Below are positions 3,238 through 55,480 of a stretch of DNA of 64,000 bases, piece by piece. The first letter of the stretch is position 1; each line of letters opens with the position of its first letter. Source of the stretch: Clostridiales bacterium (GTDB lineage: Bacteria; Bacillota; Clostridia; Christensenellales; Pumilibacteraceae). The position numbers were made by a program, and so were the translations under genes. The stretch covers positions 1 to 64,000 of the forward strand of contig JAFLVG010000008.1 of NCBI GenBank assembly GCA_022508445.1, written 5' to 3'. The notes below the pieces were generated by a model, which made no database searches, was not told the origin of the DNA, and worked only from the letters and a program-made list of their open reading frames with translations.

Positions 3238-3278
3238 AATAATTGCCTCCGATATAAATTCAGAAATTAAATACAAAT

Positions 3279-3382
3279 AAATTAGTTTTAACTCGGGGCA
3301 AACCCCGAACGCGCACAAAGCGCGCCGACGTTATCGGCAGCTGAATCAGTCTAATTTGTAGTCGCTCTGCAAATTTGTTCTC
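3279..3382 (-). repeat. Inverted-repeat element, copy A
   Basis: The outer arms AAATTAG (3279-3285) and CTAATTT (3351-3357) are perfect inverted repeats. Inside are GC-rich hairpins: CGGGG/CCCCG with a CAAA loop, and GCGC/GCGC. Beyond the right arm comes GTCGC, then GCAAATTTGTTCTC (3369-3382). The same parts in the same order occur at 55302-55430. In the minus direction this copy lies in the leader of rnjA, 42 bases before its start codon. It could be a MITE-like repeat, a structured leader, or both. Confidence 0.6.
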
Positions 3383-3456
3383 ACAAAAAAGCTAATTGAC
3401 ACTTCAATAAATTCGGCATAAAACTAACCTTAACGTGCTTTAAAGCGTTTAATATC

Positions 3457-3711: not shown

Positions 3712-6700
3712 CTACATGCCCTGGTTGCCGGGTGTGCCGTCGTATGGTGTTTGAGCATTTCCGTTGTAAGGCGCCTGAGCATTTCCTCCCTGCTGCGGTG
3801 CGGCACCGGGATTAAGCCCGATTGCGTTGTTGGTGGGAGGTACGCCACCGCCCGTGCCGAGCATAAGACCGGGATCATTCTGCACATTCATCATCGGAGG
3901 CATATATCCGAACGACTGGAAAGGCGTCGTATTCGAACTGCTTGCAAGCCGCATCATCTGTTCTTCAAGCTCCATCTCCGAAATGAGTATTGCTTCAAGC
4001 TCTTCGCGTTTACGTTTACGGCGTTTGAGCAAGATAATGAGAATGATGATGAATACGATAAGTGCAAGTATGCCTATGCCTACGCCCAACCAAACGAACG
4101 GATAGGTTTCGTAGCTTATCATAATCTTGGTAAAGAACGAAGCCTCGGGACGGTCGGTGTTCTTTATCGTGAAGGTAGCCTTTACCGTTTCGCCGGTGCG
4201 GTCTTTAACGCCGACTGTGAGCTGAGTTTCGCCGCGGTAGTTGAACGTTAGGAAGAGTTTTGTGCCGTCGCCGCTAACGCGCACCGTGCAAAGCGTGGAA
4301 GAAAGAACCTCGGTCACCTTCGCGTCGAACAACAATCTGTCGCCTTTTGAAATATCTTCATCGCTGAACAGCAACTCGGGAGCGAGCTCTACTGTTCCGC
4401 TTGAATCAAGACCGTAATCGCTCGCACGAGTATAGAATATATAACCGCTTTCGCGCTTGAAGTTTTCAAGAAGCTTAGGCTGATGATTCTTTCCGACAGT
4501 AGCCGTAAACTTAGAGTTGTACGAATAAGCACCGGGCTTCGGAGTCTGATTTGCAAAGTCATAATCTATCTTGCGAACAAATGTGACATTAAACAAAATC
4601 TCTTCCGCTTCACGTGTGCATACGAACTGCCAATCATCATCCGCATCCTTGCTGACTGTTATATACGAACCATTCGCAGTAAGCGATGTGATGATATAAT
4701 CGCTGCCGGGGTTGTATACCTTTTCTTCTCCGTCGGCGGAAGTGAACACGTACCGTCCGACACCCTTGCCTGTCGAGAAGTTGGCGTCGTATTTATCGGA
4801 GATATTGGGGAACAACTTTTCAACCGTTACTTTTGTAGGAAGACTACGGATAGCGGTCATATTTTGAAGTGAAGTGATCTGCGAATAGTCGTAGACGACA
4901 TTGATCGTCACCGTGAACGACGTAGTGCGCGCGTCCGGATCGGACAAAGGATCGCCGTCGGCAATAGTAATGCTGAGAATCTGCGTGCCGTAGAAGCAGT
5001 TGCGCGGTGTTATTACGCACTTATGCAGCTCGGTTTCACTTGCGTAATCTACCTCGAAAATATCACCGCCGAAGTCCAAGCCGCCAGTACAATGGATTGC
5101 TTGTGCTGTTTCCGCACCCATACTTACTATGCGAAGCTCATCGCCGTTACGGTCGGTAGCAAAGTCATTAATGTCGATGGTGATCTTATCGATTGCTCCG
5201 CTGTCCTTACCTACGACAGTGTACGATGTCGGTCTGTTGGCGTTCAAGCTAGGCGCGGCGTTGATCATTGTTACGTTAATCGTAATAGTTACGCCGGCAT
5301 TGCCTTTCTGCTCGTTGCCGCTTCTGTCAAGAATACGAAGATATGCGGTAGCTTCCAAGCCACGGCGGTACGATTTAGCCTCAACCGTGAAGCCGACAAA
5401 GTGATAATTGTCCTCATTCAATCCGTTGTTGCCGAGAATGGGCGTAATGACCGCAATTACGGTTTGGTCGTCGTCCGACTTGATTTCGAGAGGCCCGTCA
5501 AGCAAATACTTGGCGCTGTTCTCGTTATCGGGACGAATGAGCCTGTACGAATCGGTGTCGTAAGCCTGACTTGTGAAGTCGGGATCTTTGAGCCAATCGT
5601 CTTTAACAAGATTGACCGACAAAGCCTGGCTGTCGGGCGCAACACGAGTATTAATGACATACGAGCGATCGTCCGAGCCGTGGCTAAACGAATAACCGAC
5701 GCCAATCGAGTTAAAGCTATTGGGATTATCCATAATCTTCAAATCGTTGACAGTCAAATCGGAATTCTCGATAGTTATGTGAAGCGTGACATATTCGGAT
5801 GCCAAACCGTTTCTGTCATAACCTTTTAACCGAACAGGCAACTCGACTTGTTCCAAATATTTGCCGTCGACAAACTTATCGATACGCCTTAAAATGGTCA
5901 ACTTCAACGAGTGTGCGGGAATGTCTACCTCTTCGGGATCATCGGCACGCATAATCGGCGTATCGGTATTGTTGATAGAGATATCGATAGCGCGAGTCAC
6001 GCCTTGTCTGGAATTCCAATCGCAGTCGGCATCTGCCAAAGCATCCGCATAGTCACTCGTAAGATTGCCGGACGAAACAAAGCCCCTGACTACTACGTAA
6101 TCGCCGCGGTCGGAATCTGTGAACATTGAGTCATACGGATTTTCCGCGTCGAATATCGTGAATATGTGACTTTCGCCGATCTTACCCGTAAACGACAGCT
6201 CGGTACTTTCGTTATTGGCAATAGGCGCCGAGCTCTTGACGCTGATATAGAACAGCGAACCCGATTTGATTTGCGAGCTTTTCGGTCCGATTGAACGCGA
6301 CCTGTCAATGTATTTCTCTACTTGTACATAGAGAAGAATCTTGATATCCTGCGTTGTCGTAACAGGCTTGAACGACAATGACAAGCCGTCCTTTCCGAGA
6401 TCAACAATAAAGTATTGTTGCAAGAATGTTATGAGCGCGTTGTTGGTCGTATACGCCGCACCCGACGTTTGAACGCCGCCGATACGGTAGTCGCGCAACG
6501 CAATATCGGTTGTCGCGTCAACGCCTTCTTTAAACGACCAATATCCGCTTTGAAGTTTTTGCTGATTCAAATCGAACAAAGCCGACACGTCACCGATATC
6601 GAGCGGGGTGTACGTTCCTGTATCGTAGTCGGGCGCCATGAAAGCATACACGGCAACGCCGTAATTACTGCCGGTAAGCCCCTTCTTAATATCGGGATCG

Positions 6701-9700
6701 TCAATCATCCAATCGCGCGACGAAACGTCTTGGTCGATGGAATCGGGAACTCCGCCGTAGTTAACGAACTGGTACGTGCTGTTTTCACCGATGATGATGT
6801 TAGGATCGGGATTGACGCTGTCGCCTGCGTAATCGTCGTAACCTTTTACATACACTGTGTCGATTGCGCGGTCGTAAATGGTTCCGCCACGTACGACAGC
6901 GGTTTGGTGCTTATTCGTCATTGACGAGTACAGCGTGCTTATTCTGATTTTAATGGGAATAGCATTGTCGAAGATGTTATTGCCGACGTCGCGCACATAG
7001 AATTTGAGTTCGTCCCAATCGCTATACGGATTGTACGTCAAGCAACGTATAGTAAATTTGGCATATCCTTGCTCAACTTCTATCTCGAATGTACCGTTGG
7101 AATAGATCTCAGTCTTTGTGCCGTCGGCATTTGTTCTGACATTCTTATCCATGCTCAATCCGTTCATTGTAAACAGATTGTATTCATCTCCGCCGTCATA
7201 CAAAGAAATGTACGGTTGGTCGTTAGAGTCTTGATCGTATGCTATCTCATCAACTCGAAGCGTGAGCTCGCCGTAAACGGTAATGTTCTTGTTCGTAGCG
7301 GGATTAGTCGAATTATCGATTATATCAACTCCGGCAAGCTTGGTCGCAACTGCCGAATTGGCGATCATATACGTTTCATACACGCCTGCTACTTCTTGCC
7401 CGTTTTCATATGTAGTAAGCAAAGCCTTATGACGCTCGCGCCTGCTGTCATTATCCATTATGGGGCTGGGCTTGGAGCTTTCGACGGTAACGTAAATCGT
7501 GACCGAAACATATGAATCATCGCCGTCTACAAGCGTGATTATGATAGGCATGTTTGTGCATACTTTTCTAGCTACGATGATGGCGTCGAGGCCGTAACCA
7601 CGACCGGCTGACGCACCTTCCAAAAGCATAGTGTCGCGCACATCGGTAAGCGCGAAGCACGATTCGTCGCCGTATGTAATATCGAATATACGTAAGGCCC
7701 ACGGCGTGTCGTCATCGGCAAGAGCCAAATATCCGAGATGCTGCGCTTCTGCATTTGACGAGTTGAAGCTATGCAGCTTATAGGTATCGTTTCCATCCAC
7801 GTCTGCCGCGTTGAGGTCTTCGTACTTAACAGCTCGCGCATATTCGGAAGCGCTCGGGAAATCGCTTTCAAGACGGGTAAGATTGCGCTGGCCTATTCCG
7901 GAACGCGTAGGATTTGTAAGCGTAGCATAAGAAGTTGACTGTTGCGCAGATACTGTGCTTCCGCTCAATACGCCCGTAAAGTTGTCGTAAGGCGTGGTAA
8001 GAACAGTAAACGAGTCGTCCACACGCATTCTCAAATTACGTGCATTTTCTACCGCGTTCATTCTGACCGTAGGCGCCTGATTGGTGACCGTAACCAAAAT
8101 GAACAGTCTCGCGGTGGAATTACCGTTGTTATCGGTAAATATCAAACTGAATTTGAAATCTTTGATCTGGCTACCGTTGTATGTCATTCTGCGGTTGACG
8201 CGAATGGTGACGGCATTTCCGTCAGGCGTCACACCTGACGTAGTCAACGATGCGTTGTTGAGCGTATTCATGAACATGATGACGTCGGGTTGTGACAGAA
8301 CCGTCTGACTGTTCGTATCGGTAAAGCCGGCTCTGCCCGCGCGCAAGTCATCGTTGTTGGTTGCTTGCCATCCTTCGAACGGAGATTTGAGGTACGAACC
8401 CGATTCGAGTTTCAACCTGTCTTCAAGATTACCGTTTGTGCTACCGGCACTGCCGACCGAGTTTTTAAGATCGTTGTAATCCTTTTCCCAGAAGTATGCC
8501 GAGTTTTTAGAAAGCAGGTTAGTCGAGCTGACTACATTGTAGATGCTGAAAGAATACGTTTGATTGACGTGCAATGAGACGTTGATTTGCTTGTCGCCCG
8601 GACGTTTGTCTATTCCTTGGTAGTCTGAAAGCGTGCCGGAAAGAACGGGTTCGGAGCTTTCGATATTGACGCGAATTTCCAAAGAGACATACGAGCCGTT
8701 CAAAAATCCGTCGCCGTGGCTGTCGTAAACCAAAACTTTAAGCGGATAGTATCCCTTCCACGGTGAGGTGGGAGTTTCTTTGTAGCACACCAAGCCGCGC
8801 TCTGCGTAGTACGCACGAATTTGACTGTCGTTCATATTCGTGGTCATAGCAGTGCTTATTGTTGTCTTTGCATTCGGAGTAATGCTGAGCGTTGCGCCGT
8901 CCGCAGAAAGCGAAACGTTAAAGTAGCTACTGTACCCTTCTTCACCGGTTTCGGAGTACATGTTCGAGCCGTAAATACCGTCGTTGGCCTGATATGTTTT
9001 CCAATCACTGCTACCAAGCAATGTTTCGAGTCTTTCCCTTGCTGACAGAGTGGTATCACCCACAACACCAAAGTATCTCTGCATTGAGCGTTGCGCGACT
9101 GCGTCCGAATGAGTGTTCGTAAACACAAGATCACCGGCGTCGTTATGCGCGGTCACACGGTTGCGCGCAGGATCTCCGAGCGCCCACCTCCGAACGCTAC
9201 GCAACGAGTCGAAATAGAAGTAAGCCTTATCGGAACGGCTGTCGTCGGTAACATCTACGTCGTTATCTTCATATTGAACGGTGGTAACGTTACCGGTGCT
9301 GTCCACTCTTGCCGTGCGAGAAAGCGTGATGCTCTTGCCGCTGGAATCCGTGTTCATGCTGATGGACGTATAATAGCCGTCGGTCTCGCTCGCTACCGCA
9401 CCCTCTTTATCGTTAGCCGCGGCAAGAATCTTGATATAGCTGTTGCCGATATCGAGCTTGAACGAAACCGTGGCGGAGTTTTGAGCCTTTGTCGCGCTGT
9501 TATAAGATACCGAAGTTCTGCCGTTGCTGTAAGAGCATTGTGCAATTGCAACGCTCAAAGTGAGCGACGACGCAGTCGATCGCGTGTAATTCTTTTTGAT
9601 ACCGATGCCGAATGTGTTTTCTTGCAGCTTTTCGTCTTGGTCAGCAAGATACATTATTCGACCGTTACCAATCAAATTATTGATATTGCTCGTTTTATAA

Positions 9701-12700
9701 GTTGTGTCAGACGTAATCCAAGCGGGGGCATGCCCACTCGTGTCAATAATAGGCATAGCCAAATTGTGGTTAAAATAATTGCCTTGCCTTGCCGCTTTGT
9801 AACCGATGTCATCGGTATTCGCTCTTTCGCTCGCCGAATCGTAAGCGTCAAATGACGTGAACGACACATACGGATTTTTGAACAAGTACAGAGGATTGTC
9901 GGCAGGCAAATCTCCACGCCAAGTAGTCACACCGTCGCTTATAGAAAGCGCTTTGTAGTAATCGTTAAGACGGCTGTAACCGTTGTCGCTGACAATATCG
10001 TATGCCACATAGTTATTGGAGGCATATGTTATTTCGCCCGTAGACGAATTGATACTGATGTTTTCTTGGCTTCTTCCGAAATAGCTCATCGGAATATACG
10101 TATAGGCACCGTTAGCGTCTATCGTTATAGTATCCGAGAACTTGAATGCTTTTTCTACCGATCTGTTGGAAGTCGTTACACTTCCGCCGTTGAAATACTT
10201 GACTTCGTAAGTATAATCATTACCCTGCTTATACACGTCACCCGAGTGAACGCCTGCAAGAATGCCGTCGGTGCTGTTTGCGGCCCTCGACTTCAATTGC
10301 GTTCCCGTACCGTTGGTGTTGATTGTGTTGGTTGCCGCATCGTAATATATGCTATTTGTGTATTGCGAAACGCCTTCTTTGATTTCGTAATAAACGGAAT
10401 CAATATCGCCGTCGAACGTCGAGATATAATTGATGTTCGAGTCCGCAGCATCGGTAACCGTATAATAACCGTCGAATTGGTTGTAATAAGTATAAGGAAT
10501 AATACCTATCGAATTTACAAACAAATCGTAATGCGCGTACAAATAACCGTCGACAGATTTGTTGACGCCGCTCTCGTAGGAATTGACGCTCATACCGGCA
10601 GAGCTTCCGCCGAATTTCGTTTCGTCGCGAAGCATCATACTTAAACGTATGTACTCTCCGCCTATCGACGACGCTTTGGGCACAACTTTTACCGCCCAAT
10701 CGGTCACTATCCATCTGCCCTGGCTGTCAAAGAAAAGACTCCAATCGGTTACAGTTTCCGATTCAGTGCCGGCACGAAGCTCTGAGGCGGAATATGTATT
10801 GCCGTCTACATAATAATAAATTTCGTATTCGGATACACACGCATCGAGCGTAGAGGGTTCCGGACGTCTGGAATTTATTGAAATTATTACGCCGACTGCT
10901 TCGTCGTCGGCCAATGCCGGCGCAATATACGGAACCATTGCGCGGTAATCCGATGCCGTAGGTGACTGCGCTGTGACGTTGTAGTATTCACGTATGCTAT
11001 CGGGACTTGCCGCAGGAGACTTGATCGGAGACAAAACTATGCCCTGCAATGCGTCCGATTCGGTAGCAACAGTCTTAATCTGTCCGGATGAAACGCCGTC
11101 ATTCTTCAATTCCGTTACGGCTTTATCGCTCGACGCAAAGTATCTCGGACTGGACATATCGTTTGTGTTAAGACTTTCGACAGTCCAAAGGTTGTCGAAC
11201 TCGTCACTTTCTTCGCCACGGATGAAACCGCTGTCGCTATTGTTAATATTAGGCAAAGAGTTCAATACCTGAACAACAATTCTGCATCGAGCCGTATCGG
11301 TATCTCGCGAATTGGACGAGTGTCCGTCTGTTGCATAGAAATACACGTATAAGGTTTCAACACTTTGAGTGGAGTTAAGCGCGGTGATAGTCAAAGTCTG
11401 TGATGTAATCGACACGCGCAAGAAATCCGTATAAGGCCGTTTTGTAACGGGATCTATCAAATTATTCTGTGCGTCACGAATCTCGCATCCGTTTTGAGGA
11501 TAGAACGAAGGCGTATCTTCCTCGTTGTCGTACAAGAAGTTCTTATACAACTCTTCCCTTGTGACATACGGTGCGGCATTGATGACAATAGTGGTGGGAA
11601 CTACGCTTATTGCACCGCTCATATCGGACAACGTCAAATCGTCGGGATCGTTGTCGATAGGAGCAGTCCGCAATGTGTAAATCTTTTTCGCGGCTTCTTC
11701 GCCTACCGTCGGCGCGCTGTTGATAACGTTGATTTTAATTTTGATTTTTGCAGTTCCGGCAGAGCTACCCGACGCACCCGTACCCGTGCGGTCGCGCACG
11801 GTCAAATCTATTTCGGCAGGCACACCCGATTGAGTACGCATATCCGCGGTGATGATCAAATAGTCGATATTGTACGTGTGGGCATTGTCATAGTTGCCGC
11901 TGTCGTTTTTGAATTTGATAGTATTGCCGAATGTGTACGAAACGAACATATCGCCCAATACATTCGGTTCGGCAAACGCCGCCGAGCTGCCGTACGGATC
12001 GAAGAGATAACCGTCGAGATTTTTATTGTCGTCTTTTCTCTCGAAATAAAGTTTGTCTATGCTTGTTGTCTTAATAGTATCGAGCGTCGCGCCGAAGAGA
12101 TTACTCGTCGATGAAGCCGCAAATGTGCGCGTCGTATTGAGCTTGTCAAGCATAGCGGTAAGCTTCTGACGGTACGATAACGATGTGAAGTCCATGTTGC
12201 CGGCGGTGGTGTTTTGCGAAACGGCAAGCGCGGTAATCTTCGAGCGCGTTTCGCTTGTTCCCGCTTTGTCGTCGACAGAGAAAGTACCGTTTCCGAAATA
12301 TCCGCTGAGTCCGTTGAATGTAAAGCCGTTTGTCGGATATACAACACCGCTGTTGATAATATTTTGATCGTACAGCAAATCATACGGCGTAACGAATATT
12401 CTCGAATGCATGGGAACGCTGTACTCGATAACAGCCACACCGTTCTCATTTCTGTATTCAGATTTGACGTTCTTGCCGTTGACTGAATAGCTGAGCTGTG
12501 CTACCTGCGTCGTTCCTGTCGAGGAATGCGTAGCATAAGCCGTAGGCGACGAGTTGTTGGTCTTTACGGCAATAGTCACCTCACACGACTGTCCTGCCGT
12601 ATCGGTAAGCGTGGCCTTGGCATGTAAATACCTGTTGTGAGTCCAGCTTTTAAGCGTTATCCTGATGCCGTTGATTTTTATGCACTGAATGGTTGAGCCG

Positions 12701-15700
12701 TTTGGATCGTTGTTGTAATTGATACTAACCGGACTGCCGAAGTTTGCGGCAGTCACGCGGTTGCCGAAATAGTCGTAAGGAATGTAAATTTCTTCGACCG
12801 AAACTTGGAAGTACTCGCCGGACGTGTTGCCATTGACGCTTCCCTGTATGTTGTTGATATTTGCAATGGTCAAAAGCTCGTTCAGTCTGCCGTCGTTGCC
12901 ACTGCCGTTTACGGAAAATCCGTTGAGCATATTAGGCGAATAGAAGTTGTCCGAGTCCGCGCCCAAAGCCTTCAAATCCGCACTGACGTACTGCCCGTCC
13001 TTATAATACTTGCCGAGCGCATAAGTATTGTGCTCGTAAGTTATGCCCATCGGCGAGAAAACTACCGAATAGTCAACGTCGCCCTCTACCGTGGGCATGG
13101 CGCTCGCGCCTGCACCGGCAGATCCGCGGTCATACGACAAATCGGTCGGTTTTGCGTCCTCTACAATAATTCCGAGCGGCAACCATATGCCCTGGTCGGT
13201 GGCATCGTTTTTGTCTATTACATTGATAAGAATATAGAAATGACCGGCATTAAGACCGCCTGTCTTGCCGCAAGTCAAGCCGCTTTCCACACTTCCGCTC
13301 GTCGCTATGCGCGTTGTCGCCGCATTGCGACCGCTCTTGTACATGTCATAGGTGGCACGCAAGCCGGTAAGCGTTAAACTCGTGCCCGAGAAAGAATACT
13401 GGACATACGCCGTATTCGACACAACGTTGCTGATATACCATTCTTCAAAGCCCGTCTTATAGTCGGCGCCTTCAAGCATACCCGTCTTCAATGCGTTTGC
13501 AAGTATACTCTTATCGAGTGCCGCACTGCCGGTAACGAGGTTGAAATACGATTTATCTTTTGTATCGCCGCTTGCATTGAGCGTAGACACGACTTTGCCG
13601 TACTTATCGAGCTGAATATACTCGCTCGTCGCGACTTTGATGTCTTTGATCTGGTGAGTCGTATTCGAAATGCTCGTGACGTCTACGTCTTTGAAATAAG
13701 TGTTGAGATTTACAGGCGTCTGTGCCAAAGGTTTGAGCTTGACAACCGGCGCATTGTCGCCCGACGTGTCTTTGAGTACGGGGCGCGTGTTATCCATTTT
13801 GAAGACGATATCGAGCGTGACAGGCGCAATATCGGCAACAGCTTGCGTACCGTCGGTATACGCCGTAGCCGTTTCGACTACGTACAAAGTGGTCGATAAA
13901 ACTTGATACTGCGGATCGGGCGTCAAGCAGACGAACGTCAACGATTCAAAGGCGTTTGCAATACGAACTTTGCTCGAATTATAAACTACCTTTTGTGCGT
14001 TTTGGTTATACTCCGTTATTTCGTATTTATGTCCGGTGCCGGTGATTGCGGACGTGCTGTTGAGCGCGATAAGGACTTTATCGTTGGTGAAGAATGCGCC
14101 GTTTGTGAGATCGCCTGTAAGAAGATCGCTTGCCTTGATCTTAAACGGTTGATTGTACTTCAACGACTGCTCGAATATCAGCGTATATCTATTCGTGCCG
14201 TTGGGGTTGTATATCTTATCCGCCGACGCAAAAACTTCGGGAGGAGTTGTGGAATTCGACTTTCCGAGGAAATAAGAATCGCCGCCGTTTTCCACACGCG
14301 TGGTGCGAGTGGCAACAGTGCTTACCGGAACCTTCACATAAAATTTGATAACAGACCAACCGTGCTGTGTTTGCGAGCCGAATGTATCGCGCACCCTTGC
14401 GTAAAGCGGTATAGTGCCGTTTGCAGTACAACCGTCCATGCCGCTTCTGGGGTACATCTTTACGGATGTGATATTTATGCTCGAATCACTCGTCCACGTC
14501 CAATTAAAGTACTTGCTCGCATTCGTAGAGCACGCCGTATTGAGATACAAACCCGTAGCGGTAGTATTAGTGCCTGCCGAAGTGCTGTTGGTCTTTGTTA
14601 CGGTTTTGAGATTGGACGCCGTGCCGTCGGTGAAAGCGAGTGCGGTCTTTGTCGCGTCGGGATCGGTAGCAATAGAGCTGGCATTAATCGTTCCGACACT
14701 GCCTGTTACGCCGCGCTTCATGACCGTGATTGTGGTACCGGTAGCGGTAGGAGCTTGGTTGACGTTGATTACGGTTATTCTTGCATAGCCGTCGCCCGAG
14801 CGATTGTTGTTTGAACCGCCGCCGGAATAACCCGATTTGATATGGCCTGATCCGCCGCCGCCGCCGGTTCTGCCGTCAGCACCTGCGCCGTTGGAATCGC
14901 CGCCGCCACCGCCGCCGCCGTACCAGCCGCCGCCACCGCCGCCGCCGGCCTCGTAACCTGCGGTGCTGTTTGCCGCACCGTAGCTGTCGCCGCCCTTACC
15001 GAACGATCCGTTTTGTCCGACAACGGCAGTACATGCCGAAGCGGTAGAGCCCTTGCCTGCCGCGCCGCCGCTACTTTGCGTACCACCGGACGCTTGATAG
15101 CCCGAGCCGCTGATATAACCGCCACTCGACGCGCCGCCGTTGTTGTTGCCGCCGCCGCCGTAGCCGCCTTGACCGTATGTACCGCTGTGCGCGTTCGTTG
15201 TTGATCCGCCGCCGCCGCCGGCTACAAGCAATACGTTCGCTTGGTTTGCGGAGCTGCTGAGATTGTTTAGCGTGCCGGAAACAAGCGCCATGTGCGACGC
15301 ACCGCCGCCACCGCCGCCGCTGTTGCCTATGTACGTTCTTCCGCCGCCGTTGTATCCGCCGAGCTTACCTGTGCTTGTCGTACCCGACGCGCCCTGTCCG
15401 CCGACAACTATATATATATATTGTCCGGCCGATGCGGTTACTTCGTAAGTGGTTATGTAGGTATATCCGCCAAGACCGCCGTAGCAACCGGTGTCGTAAT
15501 AACCGCCTTGACCGCCCCAAACTTCGAGCTTGTACGTGCCTTTGGGCAGCTTAATCGAATATATCTTATTGTTTGAATAGCTGTAATTTATGACGTCGTT
15601 GTTGTTCAGCGCGCCGTTAGCGGTTCTGTCGCCTTCCAAATTGGCATGCGTTGCCGATGTGGAAACCGAGCCGTTCTGAACGCCGTCCACAGCGACCGAA

Positions 15701-15828
15701 CTTGACATGTCGCCAAAGCACAGCGCACATGTAAGCCCAAGCGCCACAGAGATAAACACACTGATAAGCGCTATCAGAAATCTTTTCGACCGCTGTTCGG
15801 TCTTCGAGCTATTATTGCTTTTACTCAT
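3712..15828 (-). CDS. Giant cell-surface protein: Gly-rich domain plus cadherin-like repeats
   Basis: At about 4,040 residues this gene takes 12 kb. A hydrophobic signal or anchor lies at residues 18-42. A glycine-rich module of the ALK/LTK-like type follows at about 90-350 (IKLPKGTYKLEVWGGQGG start, many poly-Gly runs). Then come some 3,500 residues of beta-rich modules joined by N-x-x-P boundaries (NQAPT, NSSPT, NSAPT, NSLPN, TNQAPT, NAAPS), as in cadherin/dystroglycan-like repeats. A membrane helix sits near 3911-3936, then KRRKRKR and a ~100-residue Gly/Pro/Asn-rich cytoplasmic tail. There is no LPXTG motif. Of two close ATG codons, the second (15828) is correctly spaced from GAGG; the first at 15834 is one base from it. 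It forms its own transcription unit. Adhesion or envelope scaffolding is inference; no catalytic domain was recognised. Confidence 0.85.
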   Translation of the reverse strand: MSKSNNSSKTEQRSKRFLIALISVFISVALGLTCALCFGDMSSSVAVDGVQNGSVSTSATHANLEGDRTANGALNNNDVINYSYSNNKIYSIKLPKGTYKLEVWGGQGGYYDTGCYGGLGGYTYITTYEVTASAGQYIYIVVGGQGASGTTSTGKLGGYNGGGRTYIGNSGGGGGGASHMALVSGTLNNLSSSANQANVLLVAGGGGGSTTNAHSGTYGQGGYGGGGNNNGGASSGGYISGSGYQASGGTQSSGGAAGKGSTASACTAVVGQNGSFGKGGDSYGAANSTAGYEAGGGGGGGWYGGGGGGGDSNGAGADGRTGGGGGSGHIKSGYSGGGSNNNRSGDGYARITVINVNQAPTATGTTITVMKRGVTGSVGTINASSIATDPDATKTALAFTDGTASNLKTVTKTNSTSAGTNTTATGLYLNTACSTNASKYFNWTWTSDSSINITSVKMYPRSGMDGCTANGTIPLYARVRDTFGSQTQHGWSVIKFYVKVPVSTVATRTTRVENGGDSYFLGKSNSTTPPEVFASADKIYNPNGTNRYTLIFEQSLKYNQPFKIKASDLLTGDLTNGAFFTNDKVLIALNSTSAITGTGHKYEITEYNQNAQKVVYNSSKVRIANAFESLTFVCLTPDPQYQVLSTTLYVVETATAYTDGTQAVADIAPVTLDIVFKMDNTRPVLKDTSGDNAPVVKLKPLAQTPVNLNTYFKDVDVTSISNTTHQIKDIKVATSEYIQLDKYGKVVSTLNASGDTKDKSYFNLVTGSAALDKSILANALKTGMLEGADYKTGFEEWYISNVVSNTAYVQYSFSGTSLTLTGLRATYDMYKSGRNAATTRIATSGSVESGLTCGKTGGLNAGHFYILINVIDKNDATDQGIWLPLGIIVEDAKPTDLSYDRGSAGAGASAMPTVEGDVDYSVVFSPMGITYEHNTYALGKYYKDGQYVSADLKALGADSDNFYSPNMLNGFSVNGSGNDGRLNELLTIANINNIQGSVNGNTSGEYFQVSVEEIYIPYDYFGNRVTAANFGSPVSINYNNDPNGSTIQCIKINGIRITLKSWTHNRYLHAKATLTDTAGQSCEVTIAVKTNNSSPTAYATHSSTGTTQVAQLSYSVNGKNVKSEYRNENGVAVIEYSVPMHSRIFVTPYDLLYDQNIINSGVVYPTNGFTFNGLSGYFGNGTFSVDDKAGTSETRSKITALAVSQNTTAGNMDFTSLSYRQKLTAMLDKLNTTRTFAASSTSNLFGATLDTIKTTSIDKLYFERKDDNKNLDGYLFDPYGSSAAFAEPNVLGDMFVSYTFGNTIKFKNDSGNYDNAHTYNIDYLIITADMRTQSGVPAEIDLTVRDRTGTGASGSSAGTAKIKIKINVINSAPTVGEEAAKKIYTLRTAPIDNDPDDLTLSDMSGAISVVPTTIVINAAPYVTREELYKNFLYDNEEDTPSFYPQNGCEIRDAQNNLIDPVTKRPYTDFLRVSITSQTLTITALNSTQSVETLYVYFYATDGHSSNSRDTDTARCRIVVQVLNSLPNINNSDSGFIRGEESDEFDNLWTVESLNTNDMSSPRYFASSDKAVTELKNDGVSSGQIKTVATESDALQGIVLSPIKSPAASPDSIREYYNVTAQSPTASDYRAMVPYIAPALADDEAVGVIISINSRRPEPSTLDACVSEYEIYYYVDGNTYSASELRAGTESETVTDWSLFFDSQGRWIVTDWAVKVVPKASSIGGEYIRLSMMLRDETKFGGSSAGMSVNSYESGVNKSVDGYLYAHYDLFVNSIGIIPYTYYNQFDGYYTVTDAADSNINYISTFDGDIDSVYYEIKEGVSQYTNSIYYDAATNTINTNGTGTQLKSRAANSTDGILAGVHSGDVYKQGNDYTYEVKYFNGGSVTTSNRSVEKAFKFSDTITIDANGAYTYIPMSYFGRSQENISINSSTGEITYASNNYVAYDIVSDNGYSRLNDYYKALSISDGVTTWRGDLPADNPLYLFKNPYVSFTSFDAYDSASERANTDDIGYKAARQGNYFNHNLAMPIIDTSGHAPAWITSDTTYKTSNINNLIGNGRIMYLADQDEKLQENTFGIGIKKNYTRSTASSLTLSVAIAQCSYSNGRTSVSYNSATKAQNSATVSFKLDIGNSYIKILAAANDKEGAVASETDGYYTSISMNTDSSGKSITLSRTARVDSTGNVTTVQYEDNDVDVTDDSRSDKAYFYFDSLRSVRRWALGDPARNRVTAHNDAGDLVFTNTHSDAVAQRSMQRYFGVVGDTTLSARERLETLLGSSDWKTYQANDGIYGSNMYSETGEEGYSSYFNVSLSADGATLSITPNAKTTISTAMTTNMNDSQIRAYYAERGLVCYKETPTSPWKGYYPLKVLVYDSHGDGFLNGSYVSLEIRVNIESSEPVLSGTLSDYQGIDKRPGDKQINVSLHVNQTYSFSIYNVVSSTNLLSKNSAYFWEKDYNDLKNSVGSAGSTNGNLEDRLKLESGSYLKSPFEGWQATNNDDLRAGRAGFTDTNSQTVLSQPDVIMFMNTLNNASLTTSGVTPDGNAVTIRVNRRMTYNGSQIKDFKFSLIFTDNNGNSTARLFILVTVTNQAPTVRMNAVENARNLRMRVDDSFTVLTTPYDNFTGVLSGSTVSAQQSTSYATLTNPTRSGIGQRNLTRLESDFPSASEYARAVKYEDLNAADVDGNDTYKLHSFNSSNAEAQHLGYLALADDDTPWALRIFDITYGDESCFALTDVRDTMLLEGASAGRGYGLDAIIVARKVCTNMPIIITLVDGDDSYVSVTIYVTVESSKPSPIMDNDSRRERHKALLTTYENGQEVAGVYETYMIANSAVATKLAGVDIIDNSTNPATNKNITVYGELTLRVDEIAYDQDSNDQPYISLYDGGDEYNLFTMNGLSMDKNVRTNADGTKTEIYSNGTFEIEVEQGYAKFTIRCLTYNPYSDWDELKFYVRDVGNNIFDNAIPIKIRISTLYSSMTNKHQTAVVRGGTIYDRAIDTVYVKGYDDYAGDSVNPDPNIIIGENSTYQFVNYGGVPDSIDQDVSSRDWMIDDPDIKKGLTGSNYGVAVYAFMAPDYDTGTYTPLDIGDVSALFDLNQQKLQSGYWSFKEGVDATTDIALRDYRIGGVQTSGAAYTTNNALITFLQQYFIVDLGKDGLSLSFKPVTTTQDIKILLYVQVEKYIDRSRSIGPKSSQIKSGSLFYISVKSSAPIANNESTELSFTGKIGESHIFTIFDAENPYDSMFTDSDRGDYVVVRGFVSSGNLTSDYADALADADCDWNSRQGVTRAIDISINNTDTPIMRADDPEEVDIPAHSLKLTILRRIDKFVDGKYLEQVELPVRLKGYDRNGLASEYVTLHITIENSDLTVNDLKIMDNPNSFNSIGVGYSFSHGSDDRSYVINTRVAPDSQALSVNLVKDDWLKDPDFTSQAYDTDSYRLIRPDNENSAKYLLDGPLEIKSDDDQTVIAVITPILGNNGLNEDNYHFVGFTVEAKSYRRGLEATAYLRILDRSGNEQKGNAGVTITINVTMINAAPSLNANRPTSYTVVGKDSGAIDKITIDINDFATDRNGDELRIVSMGAETAQAIHCTGGLDFGGDIFEVDYASETELHKCVITPRNCFYGTQILSITIADGDPLSDPDARTTSFTVTINVVYDYSQITSLQNMTAIRSLPTKVTVEKLFPNISDKYDANFSTGKGVGRYVFTSADGEEKVYNPGSDYIITSLTANGSYITVSKDADDDWQFVCTREAEEILFNVTFVRKIDYDFANQTPKPGAYSYNSKFTATVGKNHQPKLLENFKRESGYIFYTRASDYGLDSSGTVELAPELLFSDEDISKGDRLLFDAKVTEVLSSTLCTVRVSGDGTKLFLTFNYRGETQLTVGVKDRTGETVKATFTIKNTDRPEASFFTKIMISYETYPFVWLGVGIGILALIVFIIILIILLKRRKRKREELEAILISEMELEEQMMRLASSSNTTPFQSFGYMPPMMNVQNDPGLMLGTGGGVPPTNNAIGLNPGAAPQQGGNAQAPYNGNAQTPYDGTPGNQGM

Positions 15829-15886
15829 TGACATACCTCGCTTTAAGCAAGCATTAGCCGTTTTCGGCAGTGATTTTGTTTACAAT

Positions 15887-55250: not shown

Positions 55251-55301
55251 ACGCGCTTATTTCCTCTTTTTTGTTCTAAACCGTCAAATATCGCATTTAA
55301 T

Positions 55302-55430
55302 AAATTAGGAGTTGCCCCGAAGCATGCTCAGGACTCGCGCACTGCGTGCGCTTTCCGCTGAAAACATCGGGGACCGCCTAATTTGTTCTTGTCGCAAATT
55401 TGCAACCAGCAGCAAGCAAATTTGTTCCTC
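55302..55430 (-). repeat. Inverted-repeat element, copy B
   Basis: Arms AAATTAG (55302-55308) and CTAATTT (55378-55384) enclose a second pair GCCCCGA/TCGGGG and a GCGC-rich hairpin; after the right arm come GTCGC and GCAAATTTGTTCCTC (55416-55430). CAAATTTGC/GCAAATTTG form an added 9-bp inverted repeat. The order of parts matches copy A at 3279-3382. It fills most of the 230-bp gap between DUF3343 and the class-V aminotransferase gene. Confidence 0.6.
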
Positions 55431-55480
55431 GAATACTAACGGTCTTAATTCCGTTATATGAATTGGGAGTATATTGTGCT

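Follow-up and report, generated by a model that had tools for sequence, protein, structure and literature searches.

Two elements with shared inverted repeats lie far apart in the 64-kb stretch of DNA analysed here (the window), each upstream of a minus-strand gene and in the same orientation. What kind of unit are they? The preliminary description placed them at 3279-3382 and 55302-55430, read them as either structure under selection or a non-autonomous mobile repeat, knew of no described family that matched, and proposed a search for further copies, compensatory changes and empty sites. All three were found. The element is a mobile repeat; its pairing is kept on one strand, and the selected function of this pairing is likelier to be mobility than gene control.

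Two copies in the window

An exact pattern in which the spacing was fixed matched nowhere. A right-half pattern, CTAATTTGTN{0,12}GTCGC, occurs at four places in the 1.78-Mb host genome and its reversed control at none, and a 15-mer from the 5′ end leads to further copies that, once read out, form a clear interspersed family. The covariance model R2 was built from 14 copies, all from other genomes and none from the host, which avoids circularity. In the window it finds copies A and B and no other, a third match being the reverse strand of B. Both elements are therefore independently detected where they had been described, although each is slightly larger than was given (Table 1). With a second model, R1, the host genome has about 13 copies at E<1e-3; among the weaker matches are echoes of these copies on the reverse strand.

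Some of the parts originally listed as common to A and B are features of the whole family: the AAATTAG/CTAATTTGT arms form the closing stem, GTCGC belongs to the linker, and GCAAATTTGTTC to hairpin 1 and the 5′ end. CCCCGA and GCGC, in contrast, show no sequence conservation, as they lie in inner stems where the sequence varies while the pairing is kept.

Table 1. Features of the two copies in the window
Feature	Position	Strand	Basis or remarks
Copy A	3276..3408	-	decayed full-length member; R2 E=3.1e-8, R1 E=4.3e-11
Copy A 3′ terminal TTTATT (AATAAA on +)	3276..3281	-	sequence; nearly all copies end likewise
Copy B	55299..55434	-	intact member; R2 E=6.7e-18; sister genomes empty at site
Copy B 5′ end ATTCGAGGAA	55425..55434	-	alignment and empty-site comparison
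Copy B hairpin 1, arms GCAAATTTGC / GCAAATTTG	55394..55424	-	fold; covariation of helix 2
Copy B closing stem P1, 5′ arm AAATTAGG	55377..55384	-	fold and covariation
Copy B closing stem P1, 3′ arm CCTAATTT	55302..55309	-	fold and covariation
Copy B P1-loop insert, inner GC-rich hairpins	55310..55376	-	fold; wholly missing in 72-76 nt members elsewhere
Copy B 3′ terminal TTTATT	55299..55304	-	sequence

Copy A, in which hairpin 1 is eroded, lies upstream of the ribonuclease J gene rnjA, in which RNase J domains were found; the 3′ end of the copy is 38 nt short of the TTG start (3237). Copy B lies 48 nt upstream of a Se_S_carrier (DUF3343) gene and reads ATTCGAGGAACAAATTTGC...GCAAATTTGCGACAAGAACAAATTAGG...CCTAATTTATT on the minus strand. 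Comparison with empty sites shows that its inserted unit begins at CGAGG (55431), and the ATT before this is assigned to the target. Two features of the surrounding DNA may be recorded. Between 54999 and 56602 copy B separates two divergent genes, the Se/S-carrier-like gene and one for a class-V aminotransferase of cysteine desulfurase-like type. Elsewhere, the minus strand at 3712-15834 is open for 4040 aa. The encoded protein has a glycine-rich ALK/LTK-type domain close to its N terminus and apparently a membrane segment at its C terminus, and we read it as a giant surface protein.

Anatomy, ends and target of the element

The unit runs in the order CGAGGAG, hairpin 1, the linker CGACGACGACAAAT, stem P1 with zero to three or more inner hairpins, and TTTATT. 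Its length ranges from about 72 to 300 nt and is mostly about 140 nt, the standard form having three GC-rich hairpins in the P1 loop. Minimal members of 72-76 nt (L161, L163, L164, L178) consist of CGAGGAG, hairpin 1, the linker, a short P1 and TTTATT. Extended forms, of 200-300 nt, have modules set within P1, hairpin 1 or the third of the inner hairpins. Among extended members (L210-L216, L171, L173, L227), a module of similar sequence (GTAAGCAATG..TCG.GCA.CATT.GG.TGCCG) is found in two separate positions, and the family is therefore mosaic; a third module (CTTACCATACAAG...GGGCAACCGAA) is located in P1 of extended members.

The pairing is well kept. In an alignment of 59 copies, 93.5% of the cells are paired, against 80% in shuffles and 34-47% with slid partners. 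Of the 34 pairs, 29 show changes on both sides, and cells with both sides changed number 245, compared with 55 in shuffles. Copies of common ancestry, however, do not count as independent events, and mutation templated by hairpins could mimic compensatory change. The loop sequences strongly favour one strand: G(CTTG)C outnumbers its complement by 141 to 1, C(GTA)G by 39 to 0 and C(GAA)G by 10 to 1. Loops of the types G(CTTG)C and C(GNA)G are unusually stable, the former in both RNA and DNA. It follows from these counts that one strand folds, and it is the strand that reads CGAGGAG...TTTATT. This fits RNA and single-stranded DNA alike. G.T pairs stand to A.C pairs at 46:41 in symmetric stems, with no clear excess, and at 113:44 in the model-fitted alignment, a measure that carries little weight, its tRNA control being too small for use. 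As G.T is not clearly above A.C, RNA and single-stranded DNA are not separated by it.

Empty sites are evidence of gain but not of mechanism. Seven relatives, all without the element, match the joined flanks of L093 (genome G014): five at 88-96% and two, more distant, at 76-78%. The empty site reads TACG-AATTTATT-TACAGG and the filled site TACG-AATTTATT-[CGAGGAG...CTAATTTATT]-TACAGG, with nothing else changed; the unit CGAGGAG...TTTATT stands directly 3′ of a pre-existing TTTATT. The 3′ end of tuf, with the target TTTGATT, is filled in G015 and G013 and empty in six genomes including the host. The site of copy B is empty in sister genomes, while G003 retains an apparent remnant. The rnjA leaders of relatives likewise lack copy A, though this stretch is otherwise diverged, and the alignments at two other loci (L031, L085) are too diverged to read.

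Insertions thus reach the ends of genes, here tuf and a PadR-like regulator gene. At L093 the element sits within the last codons of the latter, ahead of a DUF1700-like gene (both named by eye). In tuf (L095, L113) it lies in the last codons, its 3′ end supplying the final codons and an in-frame TAG, and the protein end ITEIIK is kept.

The two ends of the element behave differently. Across 79 copies the right end is TTTATT, conserved at 87-100% at each place, whereas the left flank is looser, T-T-(T/G)-A-T-T, and the third T is G in 19% of left flanks but never at the right end. We conclude from a constant right end and a variable left flank that the right TTTATT is the element's own end, that the left motif is the target, and that there is no target-site duplication, which would have left both sides alike at every site. 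Insertion is directly 3′ of TTTATT, TTGATT and similar targets, which are left intact. Some copies also lie head-to-tail, one element behind the TTTATT end of another: a minimal copy (L159) stands directly 5′ of CGAGGAGTAAAC, and at L222 copies follow in a row. This would be the outcome if the element could use its own end as a target. The element is mobile, its ends are exact and its target rule is clear.

Distribution

The element occurs in 34 of 74 genomes and in 12 of 18 genera of the host's family, at 0 to 39 copies per genome, and the same range is seen among sister genomes within one genus. G008 and G070 are genomes with many near-identical copies. In an order-wide sample it was found in 19 of 396 genomes, mostly of this family, with good copies also in two genomes of two other families (G189 and G429). 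The viral contigs, phages and plasmids searched hold no copy. Among named genomes, a strict 37-nt pattern matched only one metagenome-assembled genome, deposited as Roseburia sp. NALB_7821b_14 (JAMPDA01; L018-L033). This is our G008, which belongs to the same genus as the window's genome, and the deposited name is probably wrong. In G070, two loci (L067 and L106) have a GC-rich flank in common, GACGCCCGCCCCTACAAAAA..., apparently another repeat adjoining the element.

How the element may move, and what it resembles

We judge it probable that A and B are copies of a non-autonomous, gene-less element whose folded single strand is moved in trans and set behind TTTATT. The strand would most likely be single-stranded DNA. 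A recombinase supplied in trans would cut after the 3′ TTTATT and join the strand to the 3′ side of a target TTTATT, in the manner of IS200/IS605 elements, and ACAAAT before P1 could pair with the element's own end or with the target as a guide. The single-strand model is weakened by the fact that the two hairpins are unlike each other, that Y1 and TnpB genes are mostly missing, that no copy bearing an open reading frame was found, and that the strand shows no bias with local GC skew. Classical IS200/IS605 elements have similar hairpins at both ends. A further possibility, on which we are doubtful, is that the copies are what can be seen of a transposition system not yet described, in which an enzyme other than a Y1 TnpA or RAYT acts on the folded strand and ACAAAT selects TTTATT by pairing.

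The search for a mobiliser covered several candidates. The Y1 transposase (PF01797) is absent from nine of the 11 genomes with eight or more copies. Among the 74 genomes, 12 have both PF01797 and the element, 22 the element only, 19 Y1 only and 21 neither, which is no association (P=0.35). TnpB (PF07282) is absent in the window's genus, and the two Y1 loci inspected there (L155, L156) have ends that differ from those of the element. Since draft genomes can lose multicopy insertion sequences, these absences are strong but not final. Copies bearing open reading frames were sought among 5′-end matches without a model match, and only extended, truncated or contig-edge forms were seen. Nor was a transposase seen when we looked for gene families recurring beside copies.

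If the element were instead a structured RNA, such as a small RNA or a leader that controls the genes downstream, and had simply been copied around, this would account for the strong covariation and for stable loops on one strand, CUUG being a stable RNA loop; rnjA and the Se_S_carrier gene do have A and B in their leaders. The shared orientation upstream of minus-strand genes, as previously noted, is true of these two copies; it does not extend to the 79 copies, around which gene orientations are balanced (++22, -+20, --20, +-12), and local GC skew over 3-8 kb, a weak test, shows no orientation bias. A cis-regulatory leader RNA would have a fixed orientation upstream of genes, and the balance found here argues against a riboswitch-like role. 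The genes beside copies also differ from genome to genome, sister genomes lack the element in the same leaders, no Rfam family matches, the length varies from 72 to 300 nt, and G.U pairs are in no clear excess. We therefore hold this explanation to be quite improbable. Effects on neighbouring genes, which are those for ribonuclease J (copy A) and the Se/S-carrier-like protein (copy B) in the window, would be incidental.

Two other routes of mobility need to be weighed against a transposed single strand. Movement by a tyrosine recombinase or another site-specific recombinase, through a TTTATT core and a double-stranded DNA circle, agrees with TTTATT on both sides and with the head-to-tail copies, and a 'site-specific recombination-like' mechanism with TTTAT has been ascribed to the bcr1-bcr3 repeats (PMC6542083). 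However, a common crossover core predicts equal motifs, while the left one is degenerate and the right one constant, and a recombinase of double-stranded DNA has no need of conserved hairpins or one-strand loops; we regard it as unlikely. A SINE-like retro-element, for which a reverse transcriptase acting in trans makes DNA at TTTATT from a folded RNA, would explain the one-strand structure and the fixed 3′ end, and its mosaic of nested modules could be a product of template switching. Target priming, though, predicts a target-derived TTTATT at the right with a duplication at the left, the reverse of a constant right and a variable left motif, and the symmetric stems show no G.U excess, which leaves this route very unlikely.

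Set beside known repeats by their descriptions, the element is nearest in kind to bcr1 (group A BCRs) of the Bacillus cereus group. The bcr1-bcr3 repeats are associated with TTTAT repeats and a reported 'site-specific recombination-like' movement (PMC6542083), and the MITE-like nature of bcr1 has been noted (PMC3446304). In common with our element they are gene-less, dispersed units of 100-400 bp with a dozen to more than 100 copies, MITE-like and with TTTAT tied to movement (PMC6542083, PMC3446304); our element likewise has TTTAT at each end and dispersed intergenic copies that are absent at orthologous sites. The host lineage of bcr1 is another one, and the asymmetry of target and end motif and the two-hairpin minimal forms are shown here for this element alone. 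The element consensus has no blastn match among PLSDB plasmids, some of which should carry bcr1, and bcr1 was compared by description.

Non-autonomous derivatives of IS200/IS605 (PATE-like) and group A IStrons are alike in having subterminal hairpins, no terminal inverted repeats and a T-rich pentamer, such as TTTAT or TTGAT, on the 5′ side (PMC4227781). Our element shares subterminal hairpins at both ends and insertion 3′ of a short T-rich target without duplication, but no full-length insertion sequence with the same ends was found, and most hosts have no Y1 TnpA or TnpB. Because this defining enzyme was tested for and not found, we do not claim membership, and the resemblance stands as a working one. 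For group A IStrons the insertion follows TTGAT, ATTAT or TTTAT and the terminal sequence is TCAG (PMC4227781), unlike the TTTATT of the element.

REP/REPIN sequences associated with RAYTs are also small palindromic repeats, and G070 has a single-copy RAYT-like gene of 252 aa, with no element adjoining. The tag and architecture differ, and no RAYT-like gene was found in the window's genus. This candidate was rejected, as most element-bearing genomes are without PF01797 and RAYT-like loci are without the element. RAYT-like Y1 genes of about 250 aa, lacking the element, stand beside housekeeping-type genes at L287 (G070), L286 (G071) and L288 (G067). Classical MITEs, mobilised by DDE transposases, are short, gene-less and dispersed as well; they too were rejected, the element having neither terminal inverted repeats over the whole unit nor target duplication.

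At both gathering and relaxed thresholds, no Rfam covariance model reaches its cut-off at the element, and we found no description of its sequence in the open literature. The early impression that no described family matches thus holds across Rfam, plasmid, phage and literature searches, with bcr1 close in kind. The element is apparently an undescribed family of mobile repeats, found across an uncultured clostridial family. Its ends are exact, empty sites are at hand and its structural profile is strong, so that annotation and tracing can begin without delay. It also poses a testable question: which enzyme places a two-hairpin strand behind TTTATT in genomes without the usual single-strand transposase?

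Finally, weak model matches at L265 and L270 (G177), L271 (G019), L266 (G112) and L267 (G169) point to an apparent sister repeat family. Its members share the hairpin-1 core GCTTGCTTGCAA with the element, differ from it in their downstream hairpins and have 3′ ends like ATTATACC or TTATAATAC; head-to-tail units are seen in L270 and L271.
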